The notes under the pieces: generated by a model
Seen by the model: only the letters and a program-made list of their open reading frames with translations
Told to the model about the DNA's origin: nothing
Database searches by the model: none
In this document: positions 52,401-57,292 of the stretch, one piece after another
How the letters are laid out: every line of letters begins with the position of its first letter
Numbering within the stretch: the first letter of the stretch is position 1
DNA from: Acidithiobacillus sp.
GTDB taxonomy: Bacteria; Pseudomonadota; Gammaproteobacteria; Acidithiobacillales; Acidithiobacillaceae
Length of the DNA: 64,000 nucleotides
Direction: 5' to 3'
Assembly: GCA_028697715.1 (NCBI GenBank)
Contig: JAQVDS010000002.1
Coordinates: 1-64,000 of the forward strand
Translations under genes and position numbers: made by a program

Positions 52401-53285
52401 ATGAGCGGCCTTGCAGATTTCGTTGGTAATACCCCGCTGTGCGAATTGCGGCGGCTGAGTCCCAATCCACGGGTGCGGATCTTTGGCAAACTGGAGGGAA
52501 ACAACCCCGCCGGTTCGGTAAAGGATCGCCCAGCTCTCAACATGATCCGCTGCGCGCTGGAGCGGGGCACGATCCGGCCGGGAGATCGTCTGGTGGAAGC
52601 CACCAGTGGCAATACCGGCATCGCCCTGGCCATGGCAGCCTCTGTCGAGGGCCTGAAAATCACGCTGATCATGCCGGAAAACATGAGCATTGAGCGGCGG
52701 CAGGTGATGCGCGCCTTTGGTGCAGATATCGAGCTCACTCCGGCCGAGGCGAGCATGGAAGGGGCCATCGACCGTGCCCGCGCCATGGTCGACGCTGGCG
52801 AGGCGATCATGCTCGATCAGTTCTCCAACCCCGATAATCCTGACGCACATGCGCGGACGACGGGTCCGGAAATCTGGCGCGACAGCCGTGGGCAGATCAC
52901 CCATTTCGTCTCGGCGATGGGGACGACCGGCACCATCATGGGCACCAGTCGTTACCTGCGCCAGGTCCACCCAGCTATCCAGATCGTCGGGGTGCAACCT
53001 GCCGCCGGCGCCAAGATCCCGGGGATCCGTCGTTGGCCCAAGGAATACATGCCCAAGATCTACCAACCCGAATTGGTCGATCGGGTCATCGATATCGGCA
53101 CGGCGGAGGCGGAGGAAATGACCCGCCGACTGGCACGCGAGGAGGGCATCCTGGCCGGCATCTCCTCCGGCGGCGCGGTTGCTGCTGCCTTGCGGGTGGC
53201 CGAGACTCTGGAGCAGGGTTTTCTGGTGGCGATCATCTGCGATCGCGGCGACCGTTATCTGTCCACCGGGGTCTTCCCCGCCTAG
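52401..53285 (+). CDS. cysM: Cysteine synthase B
   Basis: The 294-residue PLP enzyme has the cofactor lysine in NPAGSVKDRPA and the ATSGNTGIALA loop. The length and AMGTTGTIMGTSRYLR favour CysM over CysK; CysM can use thiosulfate. ATG 52401 follows ACAGGAGA. Confidence 0.92.
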   Translation: MSGLADFVGNTPLCELRRLSPNPRVRIFGKLEGNNPAGSVKDRPALNMIRCALERGTIRPGDRLVEATSGNTGIALAMAASVEGLKITLIMPENMSIERRQVMRAFGADIELTPAEASMEGAIDRARAMVDAGEAIMLDQFSNPDNPDAHARTTGPEIWRDSRGQITHFVSAMGTTGTIMGTSRYLRQVHPAIQIVGVQPAAGAKIPGIRRWPKEYMPKIYQPELVDRVIDIGTAEAEEMTRRLAREEGILAGISSGGAVAAALRVAETLEQGFLVAIICDRGDRYLSTGVFPA

Positions 53286-53287
53286 GA

Positions 53288-55270
53288 ATGATCGGTCCGG
53301 CGCCGGCCACGGTCCTGGAAATCCGAGCGGCGAGCCTCAGCGGCCCGCAGTTGCAGCTGCATAATTTGCAGATCCAGGCGCAGGGGACGAGCCCTCGCGA
53401 CCTGCACTGGCAAATCCAAACTGGCGCCGAGCAGGGTTCCAGTCCAATGCACTGGGAGACCTTGCAGGCGCAGGGGCGACTACGGTCCCGCGCTGGGGGC
53501 GACGAAGTGCAGGTGCAGGCAAGCGTTCAGGCCAGTCCCCTGGGAAACCTGCAGGTACGCGGCCAAGGAAAAGTTGGCAAAAGCGGCGGGCAACTGCGAC
53601 TACAGCTCCAGAGCCAGCAGATCGGTTCCTGGCACGCCTGGTGGCGAAGCGCAGTGCAAGGGAGCTGGTCGGCTCGGCTGATGGGAGGAGGCAATGCCCA
53701 GTACCTATTACAAACAGTACTCCCGAAAACTTGGCACCCCCAGGGAACGCTACAAGCACAACTCACTGCGCGGGGAGTGAACTGGACTAGGCTGCACGAG
53801 GCAGCCCTGCAGGCCTCGCTCAACAGGCTGCAGTTCAGCAGTCCCAGTGGGCTGCAAGCGGCCCAGGACGGCGTCTTGCATCTGCGTACCCAGGTCGAGC
53901 AGCGACAGGGCATCTGGCGGGGCCAATCCACCTTGCAGTGGCGCGCTGGCGCGGCGCTCTGGAGTCCATGGTACGCGAGCGCACCCGCCGCAGGAGTCAC
54001 GCTGCGAGGAAACTGGCAATATGGAACGCAGGACTGGCGGATAGCAGAAGCCACGCTGCGCTGGCCAGAGATGGGGCAGGCACGCTTTTCTGCTGCTTCC
54101 AGAGCCAGCTCTGCAGCGCCAGAGATTCACTTGCAGGAAGCGACTTTGGCGGTGCAGCCATTATGGCAAACCTGGCTGCGTCCAATACTCCCGAGTAGCG
54201 GTTTGGCCCATCGACTCGAGGCAAGTGGCACACTGAAGATTTCCGGGAGCTATGCCGCTGGCCTCGACAAGCTGCGCTGGCAGCTCGAGGATGGCGGCCT
54301 GCGCGATCCGCAGGGCCAATTCACTCTGCAAGACCTGCGTTCCAGCGGCACCTGGCAACGACAAGGAGGCGACTCCAAGGCCGAACTGCAGTGGCTCTAT
54401 GGTGGCTTTTATGGCATCCCTTTCGGGCCCCTCGATGCGCAGTTTCTGCTGCGCAGCCATGTCGCCGAGCTGCGCGCACCAGCCGCGCTTTCCGTGTTGG
54501 GTGGTCGTGTCCATATCCAGCATTTGCAGGCCAACTGGCAGGGCGGTTCGCCCAGCTTCGTTCTTGGTGGCGGGGTCGATCACATGCAGCTGGGTTCTCT
54601 CACCCGCACTTTTGGCTGGCCGCACTTCACCGGCACCCTTGATGCCGAGATTCCGCAATTGCGCTATCAGCAGGGCACTCTTAGCACCAGCAGCGTGATG
54701 CGCGCCCATGCCTTTGGGGGCGAAATCAGCATCGACGGACTCTCCGTGACGGGTCTCTTTACCCCCGCTCCCCTCCTGCAGACCAGCATTCGCCTGCAAA
54801 ATCTACAACTCAAACCGCTTACCGATGTCTTTCCGGTGGGTTACATCAGCGGCGTGCTCGATGGCAGCGTCCAGCATCTCACGCTGCTGGATTGGCAGCC
54901 GGTGGCCTTTGATGCGCGCATCGCGACCCGTCGCGCTCCCGGCATCCCGCAAAAAATCAGTGCCGCCGCCATCGAAAAGCTGACCAAACTGGGAGGTGGT
55001 GGCATCAGCGGCTTTTTCCAGAATATCTTCTTGCGGTTTTTCCATACGTTTTCTTATGCCAAACTGGGCTTCGGGGTAGATTTGCGAGATGGAGTCGCGA
55101 CCTTATCGGGGGTAGCCAATGCCAAAGATGGTGGATTTTATCTGCTCCGAGGCCAGGGACTGCCGCAGGTGAACATCATCGGCTACAATCGGCGCAGTAA
55201 CTGGCAGGAGCTGCTCAGCCGCCTGCACGCCGTCATGGAAGGTAAGGCCCAGGTTGCCACAGGAGACTAA
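53288..55270 (+). CDS. ydbH: YdbH-like AsmA-family protein lacking an N-terminal anchor
   Basis: The 660-residue protein is rich in beta-strand repeats and its C-terminal part matches the YdbH/AsmA-like intermembrane lipid-transport fold (QLYGGFYG-type segment and RRSNWQELLSRLHAVMEG). The E. coli protein has an N-terminal inner-membrane helix. This one begins two bases after the cysM stop with no hydrophobic segment, and upstream DNA is cysM coding. It is followed by a YnbE/YdbL-like lipoprotein, as in the ydbH-ynbE-ydbL locus. The frame is otherwise intact. Confidence 0.72.
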   Translation: MIGPAPATVLEIRAASLSGPQLQLHNLQIQAQGTSPRDLHWQIQTGAEQGSSPMHWETLQAQGRLRSRAGGDEVQVQASVQASPLGNLQVRGQGKVGKSGGQLRLQLQSQQIGSWHAWWRSAVQGSWSARLMGGGNAQYLLQTVLPKTWHPQGTLQAQLTARGVNWTRLHEAALQASLNRLQFSSPSGLQAAQDGVLHLRTQVEQRQGIWRGQSTLQWRAGAALWSPWYASAPAAGVTLRGNWQYGTQDWRIAEATLRWPEMGQARFSAASRASSAAPEIHLQEATLAVQPLWQTWLRPILPSSGLAHRLEASGTLKISGSYAAGLDKLRWQLEDGGLRDPQGQFTLQDLRSSGTWQRQGGDSKAELQWLYGGFYGIPFGPLDAQFLLRSHVAELRAPAALSVLGGRVHIQHLQANWQGGSPSFVLGGGVDHMQLGSLTRTFGWPHFTGTLDAEIPQLRYQQGTLSTSSVMRAHAFGGEISIDGLSVTGLFTPAPLLQTSIRLQNLQLKPLTDVFPVGYISGVLDGSVQHLTLLDWQPVAFDARIATRRAPGIPQKISAAAIEKLTKLGGGGISGFFQNIFLRFFHTFSYAKLGFGVDLRDGVATLSGVANAKDGGFYLLRGQGLPQVNIIGYNRRSNWQELLSRLHAVMEGKAQVATGD

Positions 55271-55273
55271 CGG

Positions 55274-55951
55274 GTGAACGCTTATCGATTTCGACACGGC
55301 CTTCGGGTCCTTCTCGTTTTGGGTCTTTCTCTGACCCTGGCGGCTTGCGTGACGGTCAACATCTATTTTCCGGCTGCTGCAGCACAAAAGCTCGCCGATC
55401 AGGTCGTCGACCAGGTCTACCACGCCGCCCAGCAAGGACGGGTGGACATCCAGACCGAGCCCCAAGCCAAGACCACCGCGCCGGCAGCCTCGGCAGCACC
55501 CAGTGCCTGGCATCGGCCGCAAGAACTGCATCCCGGTCAAATTCTAGGATATATGACCAATGTCGCGTTCCGTTCTGTCAGCAGTACAGCGCATGCTGCC
55601 GCCAATCTGGATGCCTCCAGCCCTGCCGTAATTGCCGCCAAGGCCAACGTAGAAAATCAGGCGCGCAATTTGGGCCCGTACTTTGCCAGCGGCGCCATTG
55701 GCTACACCAGCAATGGACTCGTCGCCATCCACGATGCCGCGGCGGTGCCTCTGGCGCAGCGCGGCGCGCTGGCGGGTTTGGTGGCAGGCTACAACTCTGC
55801 CCTGCAAAATCTTTATGCGCAGATTGCTGATGCCAACGGCCATCCCGAATGGGCCAGTCAGATTCAGGATAGCTTTGCCCGTGCCTGGATCGCGAAGGCC
55901 CCCGCAGGCTACTGGTACCAAGGCCCCAGTGGCCAGTGGCAACGCAAATAA
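55274..55951 (+). CDS. YnbE/YdbL-like (DUF1318) lipoprotein
   Basis: The 225-residue protein has a signal and lipobox LTLAAC (Cys25), directly followed by VTVNIYFPAAAAQKLAD as in YnbE-type lipoproteins. A linker follows, and then a DUF1318/YdbL-type domain (about 120-225) with ARANGHPEW-like IADANGHPEW and GYWYQGPSGQW. E. coli has YnbE and YdbL as separate proteins, so this looks like a natural fusion. GTG 55274 follows AGGAG by 8 nt. It would sit in the outer membrane with YdbH as partner. Confidence 0.8.
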   Translation: MNAYRFRHGLRVLLVLGLSLTLAACVTVNIYFPAAAAQKLADQVVDQVYHAAQQGRVDIQTEPQAKTTAPAASAAPSAWHRPQELHPGQILGYMTNVAFRSVSSTAHAAANLDASSPAVIAAKANVENQARNLGPYFASGAIGYTSNGLVAIHDAAAVPLAQRGALAGLVAGYNSALQNLYAQIADANGHPEWASQIQDSFARAWIAKAPAGYWYQGPSGQWQRK

Positions 55952-55969: not shown

Positions 55970-57292
55970 ATGACTCGTCCCAAGCCCATACGCGGCACAG
56001 CACCTTGTACTCTGCGGATTGACTCCCTGGATGGGGAAGGTGTGGGGGTTGCTCGGGTCGACGGCAAAGTCACTTTCGTCGCCGGTGCCCTGCCAGGGGA
56101 AGAGGTCGTAGCGCAGGTATACGAAGGTACTCCGCGTTACGATCGTGCCCGCTTGCTGGACGTGCAGCGGGCCGCGTCGCAACGGGTGACGCCACGCTGT
56201 CCCCATGCCGGGGTCTGCGGCGGCTGCAGCCTGCAACACCTGGAAGCATCGGCACAGATAGCGGTCAAACAACGGCATCTGGAAGAACAACTCTGGCAAA
56301 TCGGCAAGGTGCGAGCGGAGCGCATCCTGCCACCCATTGCCGGGCCGAGCTTCGGCTATCGCCGCAAGGCACGCCTCTCGGTCCGGGTGCCGGCCACGCG
56401 CGGGGTGTTGGTGGGCTTTCGCGAATACCATTCCAGCTATGTGGCAGAAATGGAGAGCTGCGCGGTACTCGACCCGCGCATCGGTGAGCGGATTCTCGAC
56501 CTGCGAGCGCTGATCGCGCGCTTGCACAATCCGCGCATCATTCCGCAAATCGAAGTGGCTTGCAGTGACGAAGTCGCGGCACTGGTGTTCCGTCATCTGG
56601 AAGCGCTGCCCCCCGCGGATGAGGAATTGCTCACTCTCTTTGGGCAGACCCATAACTTGCAGATCTGGTTGCAGAGTGCGGGACCCGACAGCCTGCGTTG
56701 CATCAGCGAGAGCGATCCCCCGGCATTGTTCTACGACTTGCCGGAATATGACGTCCGCCTCGCCTTCTCTCCTCTCGTCTTCACCCAGGTCAACGCCAGC
56801 ATCAATCCGGTTCTCATCCACCGCGCCCTGGCGCTGCTCGATCCCCAAGCAGGGGAACGCATTGCCGATCTTTTCTGCGGTCTGGGGAATTTTACCCTGC
56901 CCATCGCGCGCGCCGGAGCGAAGGTTCTGGGGATCGAGGGAGAGCGTCGCCTGACGGCCTTGGGCAGCGCCAACGCGGCAGCCAATGGCCTGGCGGAGCG
57001 AGTGGAGTTTCGCTGTGCGGATCTTGCCCAGGAGAGTCTCGATGAAGTGCTGGCCGGACACCCCGTGCGTAAACTTCTCATCGATCCTCCGCGCAGTGGC
57101 GCCATCGAGATCCTCAAGGACATTGGTCCCGCCATCGAGCGTTTGGTCTATGTGTCCTGCAACCCGGATACCCTCGCTCGGGATGCCGGGTATCTGGTGC
57201 AGCAGCTTGGCTTTCGTTTGCGCAGCGCAGGCATCGTCAACATGTTTCCGCATACCGCCCATGTCGAGTCCGTCGCCCTTTTTACCCGCTGA
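55970..57292 (+). CDS. rlmD: 23S rRNA (uracil-1939) methyltransferase
   Basis: The 440-residue protein has a TRAM domain, the [4Fe-4S] cysteines Cys77, Cys83 and Cys86 in [10 protein letters not shown], and a C-terminal methyltransferase with the nucleophile in [13 protein letters not shown]. RlmD, formerly RumA, makes m5U1939. It overlaps the next gene by 32 bp. Confidence 0.93.

Follow-up and report, generated by a model that had tools for sequence, protein, structure and literature searches.

A short YdbH-like bridge protein has lost its export signal throughout one Acidithiobacillaceae genus without losing constraint

In one genus of the Acidithiobacillaceae, a bridge protein of the YdbH kind has lost its export signal without losing selective constraint. 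Because the signal is gone and the constraint is kept, the protein either is exported in another way or has acquired a new job. The gene lies in a window of 64,000 nucleotides (contig JAQVDS010000002.1 of assembly GCA_028697715.1, forward strand), and the unusual feature is the loss of the signal across the whole genus rather than at this locus alone. The window genome (G000) is grouped in the genus that includes Acidithiobacillus sp. YTS05, a strain assigned to ‘Igneacidithiobacillus’ (PMC11021618). Two readings of the loss are live. The first, to which a probability of roughly 0.5 is given, is that the protein still works in the periplasm and arrives there without a classical N-terminal signal. 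The second and main rival is relocation to the cytosol, which is possible though on the unlikely side. The features of the locus are summarized in Table 1.

Table 1. Features of the cysM, ydbH-like and lipoprotein locus in window coordinates
Feature	Position	Strand	Basis or remark
cysM, cysteine synthase B	52401..53285	+	NCBIfam cysteine synthase CysM 3.6e-146; ancestral upstream neighbour of the ydbH-like gene
cysM/ydbH-like junction TAG-GA-ATG	53283..53290	+	junction sequences of 6 genus members and 7 relatives
Signal peptide of ~20-30 codons in signal-bearing relatives	starts at the equivalent of the 53283..53290 junction		
Short YdbH-like protein, predicted beta-taco, 660 aa	53288..55270	+	without signal peptide, membrane helix or cysteine
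IGPAPA, apparent remnant of the lost signal peptide's cleavage region	53291..53308	+	alignments
Residues 63 (Gly) and 73 (Glu), positions of the lost cysteine pair	53474..53506	+	alignments
Fused YnbE/YdbL-type lipoprotein, 225 aa	55274..55951	+	own lipoprotein signal (lipobox LAAC, Cys25)
YnbE-like segment CVTVNIYFPAAAAQKLADQVVDQVYHAAQQ	55346..55435	+	near-invariant in 25 homologues; T-[IV]-N motif
YdbL / DUF1318 domain	55655..55948	+	PF07027 2.7e-16; fold match to E. coli YdbL 28oj, probability 1.00
rlmD-type RNA methyltransferase, conserved downstream neighbour	55970..57292	+	synteny

The window locus belongs to the short YdbH-like type. Its protein has the length of that type (~630-700 amino acids), clear sequence homology to it and a fused lipoprotein encoded downstream, and it lacks two of the type's traits, the N-terminal signal peptide and the N-terminal cysteine pair. 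Long YdbH proteins (PF11739) are mostly 800-1000 amino acids in length, carry an inner-membrane helix and are followed by a separate YnbE of ~60-80 residues and usually by a separate YdbL, whereas short YdbH-like proteins carry a signal peptide and are followed by one fused lipoprotein. Both architectures occur within the class, the long anchored YdbH with separate YnbE and YdbL in L125-L140 and the short type with the fused lipoprotein in L029-L062.

The name ‘YdbH-like’, used in an earlier note on this DNA, stands by profile-profile comparison and fails by Pfam. Alignment of the short family with long YdbH by hhalign gave a probability of 94.5 and an E-value of 7.5e-8, spanning residues 148-495 of the window protein and 384-783 of E. 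coli YdbH. PF11739 matched neither the window protein nor the ydbH-like locus in the relatives searched, and among short-type members it matches 1 of 29 (4.5e-06). The AlphaFold2 model (mean pLDDT 86) is made almost entirely of beta strands, with a long beta structure from residue 8 onwards. Foldseek against the PDB returned weak matches only, the ApoB100 belt first and LptD among the rest, and a family-profile sequence search of the PDB gave no match. Compared with the E. coli YdbH-YnbE-YdbL bridge (AsmA-like superfamily, PF11739), the window locus has the same order of bridge protein, YnbE-type segment and YdbL domain, the predicted beta-taco fold, homology at the profile level and the YdbL fold. 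It differs in that its bridge protein has 660 rather than 879 amino acids, is without the inner-membrane helix and falls below Pfam detection, and in that the YnbE and YdbL parts are fused in one lipoprotein. With the short YdbH-like proteins of Acidithiobacillia and Lysobacterales it shares length, fold region, the fused lipoprotein and, in many of them, the upstream cysM; what they alone have is a signal peptide, predicted to be cleavable, and the pair of cysteines near the N-terminus.

The YdbL part of the lipoprotein is supported both by profile and by fold, the predicted model of its C-terminal domain matching the E. coli YdbL crystal structure (PDB 28oj) with a target TM-score of 0.81. 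Its YnbE-like start, which the earlier note had also proposed, is recognized by position, lipobox and the T-[IV]-N motif, which is common to this segment and to the free YnbE proteins that follow long YdbH. Short-type fused lipoproteins start with C-V-T-[IV]-N-[IV]-Y-F-P. When the window lipoprotein is set against the YnbE motif PITINLNVKIEHE, the lipobox and T-V-N-I are present and the remainder of the motif differs. The fusion is not special to this locus; such a lipoprotein is the standard partner of the short YdbH-like type. In several fused lipoproteins (L056:5632-6231, L040:5393-5977 and others), the YdbL domain is preceded by an internal hydrophobic stretch with AHAQ at its end, apparently what is left of a former YdbL signal peptide.

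No hydrophobic N-terminal segment was found in any of three frames across the cysM junction, either in the window or in the genus members, in agreement with the previous observation of a bridge protein without its inner-membrane helix. The reported start 2 bases past cysM was also confirmed: the TAG stop of cysM occupies 53283-53285, the next ATG stands at 53288, and the open reading frame that begins there (53288-55270) is free of stops. The same signal-less layout is found in five further species of the genus, giving six gene-bearing species in total, and the signal-less set includes YTS05 (NZ_CP094359.1, complete chromosome) and G003 (4 contigs). Since six species share this layout, a sequencing error, frameshift or assembly artefact at the junction is ruled out. 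The proteins of the genus start with MIGPAPATVLEI (G000, G007, G002), MMASAPATELVI (G003), MLAPTTVLEI (G001) and MIPTPPPLLQI (G006), and the predicted N-terminal peptide of the window-genus protein is (M)IGPAPATVLEIR.

In the other genera of the family, the protein has a signal peptide, 20-35 residues in length, whose end is marked by motifs such as GSAWA/QTLEI. An AxA motif stands behind the hydrophobic stretch in 41 of 51 short-type sequences outside the genus, and among the 10 without it the automatic choice of start is clearly wrong in a few. Given this cleavage motif, rule-based prediction suggests that the short-type relatives are probably secreted soluble proteins rather than anchored ones. 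Alignment of the cleavage regions sets GSAWA/QTLEI of the relatives against GPAPA/TVLEI of the window, a pattern that points to a deletion of the signal peptide's n- and h-regions that spared some of the cleavage region.

The earlier note offered two options: the arrival of cysM upstream had cost the protein its anchor, or the protein works differently. The second is the question that matters; the first is contradicted by gene order. In all readable family members, cysM is directly upstream of the ydbH-like gene and the DUF1318 lipoprotein gene directly downstream, and the same arrangement recurs in the order's other families and, at class level, in some relatives, Sedimenticola and endosymbiont genomes among them. 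Of 40 relatives, 27 were found to have a homologue, one in each genome. Because cysM is at this position in family-, order- and class-level relatives that still have the signal, it was already there when the signal was lost. The truncation of an anchored YdbH by the arrival of cysM is therefore hardly credible, although the start 2 bases after cysM would suit it. The ancestor with an E. coli-type anchor that it implies is not supported either, since the signal of the short-type relatives looks cleavable and these proteins were probably never anchored.

The junction itself bears on another explanation, namely that an export signal exists unseen and is supplied through an unusual start, through recoding or at some other step of expression. 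A short stop-to-start gap such as that at the cysM junction suits termination-reinitiation coupling (PMC10666635), and translation of the ydbH-like gene is probably tied to cysM. Such a tight junction, together with a composition of the exported type in a protein without a visible signal, could accommodate a hidden signal, but the explanation is improbable given what lies upstream: the three frames there are cysM coding sequence without any conserved hydrophobic stretch, and in-frame stops close off an upstream extension near the start in G006, G003 and G001. In G006 the ydbH-like frame is closed up to the cysM stop, so that a longer N-terminus could not be accommodated. Each genome gave a single match, which rules out a second copy with a signal elsewhere.

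Selection on the signal-less gene is not relaxed. Within the genus its dN/dS is ~0.2, and dN(ydbH)/dN(cysM) is 3.4-4.4. In the sister genus, where the signal peptide is present, most pairs give 3.9-4.5. Reading frames of 660 codons are intact in five species at 49-93% identity. The possibility of a pseudogene, raised in advance, is ruled out by the dN/dS value, and the intact frames agree with this. That the loss of the signal ended the function and the frame is now decaying is very improbable as well. It might be read from two sister species, G004 and G005, in which the lipoprotein gene is absent and ydbH is reduced to a C-terminal remnant (GLPRVDIVGYNRR) between cysM and the rlmD-type gene, which by synteny shows where the lost gene pair used to lie. 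It might also be read from the fast divergence of the N-terminal part, the first 120 residues seeming somewhat less conserved within the genus (0.37) than in the sister genus (~0.5), in sets that are unequally divergent; this also weighs against the periplasmic reading. However, the dN/dS of the intact frames is at the level of the signal-bearing orthologues, and the tree places G004 and G005, with full support, outside the clade that lacks the signal. From this branching it follows that the signal was lost before G006 split from the others. In the small genomes of G004 and G005 (L081:5900-6700, L082:5250-5950), ydbH, the DUF1318 lipoprotein, TamB, YhdP and DsbB were undetected and LptD is kept; these species are apparently without a known AsmA-type phospholipid bridge, as judged from assemblies that are incomplete (91% and 61%).

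Relocation to the cytosol would give the protein a new job there, e.g. lipid binding or acting with CysM, and would leave the lipoprotein to work alone. The disappearance of the signal peptide from all six gene-bearing species, together with a cysteine pair that relatives keep, is in line with such a move, as is translation that is probably tied to a cytosolic enzyme; unrelaxed selection would be expected of a new function too. Set against this is the composition of the protein, whose very low acidic content and lack of cysteine are unlike those of any large cytosolic protein sampled. Periplasmic proteins of acidophiles are exposed to low pH. Aspartate and glutamate together make up 4.0-7.4% of the genus proteins and 4.4-7.7% of their signal-bearing acidophile relatives, compared with 9.0-13.6% in the sampled neutrophile homologues and ~11% in cytosolic neighbours (~10-13% in CysM and RlmD). 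A rough calibration on 343 kb of the window genome used a basic purpose-built gene caller and a simple rule for signals. Among 111 proteins predicted to be cytosolic, none was as low as 6.1% D+E, and cysteine was present in all 33 that were predicted to be cytosolic and reach 400 amino acids; five full-length orthologues of the bridge protein have none. At the sites substituted between G000 and G003, cysteine accounts for 0 of 474 residues where ~6 are expected at the cytosolic rate of 1.25% (Poisson P ~0.003), and D/E for 10.3% versus 12.7% in cytosolic proteins, a modest difference. The signal-bearing relatives have the same cysteine pattern, and the composition is partly inherited. As far as composition can indicate a compartment, it favours a protein that is still exported.

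Other observations also argue against the cytosol. The rate relative to cysM is unchanged, the best-conserved C-terminal region is the same in the genus and its relatives, and within the genus the signal, the lipobox and the conserved segment of the partner lipoprotein are all retained. The loss of both the ydbH-like and the lipoprotein gene in G004 and G005 counts in the same direction and in favour of the periplasmic reading, although these sister species also count against that reading in that they manage without the gene.

The N-terminal cysteine pair is kept in 27 of 28 relatives outside the genus and is absent throughout the genus. Lost disulfide machinery was considered as the reason and rejected, since DsbB is present. 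The missing pair would suit relocation to the cytosol, a reducing compartment, and to that extent speaks against the periplasmic reading; it would also suit a different way of folding. A second pair, close to the C-terminus at residues 597 and 604 of the window protein, is found in other Gammaproteobacteria (L023, L030, L034-L049 and similar) and is absent from the aligned Acidithiobacillales sequences.

A precedent for a normally exported protein crossing the Sec channel without its signal sequence is found in E. coli, where prlA (SecY) mutants allow such export (Derman et al. 1993, cited in PMC4826270). The window genome differs from these mutants in that it has no prlA-like change in SecY and its other proteins retain their signals. 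In SecY the plug is unchanged, and no genus-specific change was found where prlA mutations cluster (PMC4826270). The search for a route of export gave none, which counts against the periplasmic reading. A general loss of Sec signals and a prlA-like SecY are both rejected on these grounds. Co-export with the lipoprotein through Tat was rejected as well, as the genus lipoproteins that were read have no twin-arginine motif.

TamB and YhdP are bridge-like proteins of the AsmA superfamily, as YdbH is, but their families are separate from it. TamB (PF04357) is present in the gene-bearing species except G001, the assembly of which is 69% complete, and YhdP (PF13116) was undetected in the window genus; few substitutes for the YdbH-like protein therefore remain. 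YhdP, TamB and YdbH are jointly essential and redundant in E. coli (PMC8593681), which makes it less likely that a loss of YdbH function would be neutral here. YhdP was also undetected in genus g4 (g1 and g4 genomes: G000, G002, G003, G007, G010, G013) and is present in g2, g3 and the neighbouring families.

On the periplasmic reading, the locus would be a short YdbH-type lipid-bridge module, in which the beta-taco protein would hold lipid tails in its groove and the fused YnbE/YdbL outer-membrane lipoprotein would dock its C-terminal end. Lipid transport is inferred here from YdbH, and the periplasmic location is likewise a deduction. A deletion in the ancestor of the species that carry the gene would have removed the n- and h-regions of the signal, so that the start codon came to stand directly after cysM; the cysteine pair near the N-terminus would also have been lost. 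The protein and the lipoprotein would still work in the periplasm, the former crossing the inner membrane without a classical N-terminal signal. The fuller proposal, that a lipid-bridge protein is exported genus-wide without an N-terminal signal peptide and by a route independent of classical Sec/Tat signals, is put forward tentatively.

If the protein is periplasmic, the genus as a whole would provide a natural example of a large envelope protein whose export needs no signal peptide, and relatives that still have the signal would allow a direct comparison. If it is cytosolic, a bridge-type protein would have been relocated by a single deletion and kept under equal constraint. The combination of a short YdbH carrying a signal peptide with a fused lipoprotein is found in many Gammaproteobacteria and Acidithiobacillia, and for these carriers the anchored-bridge model of E. 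coli may not hold.
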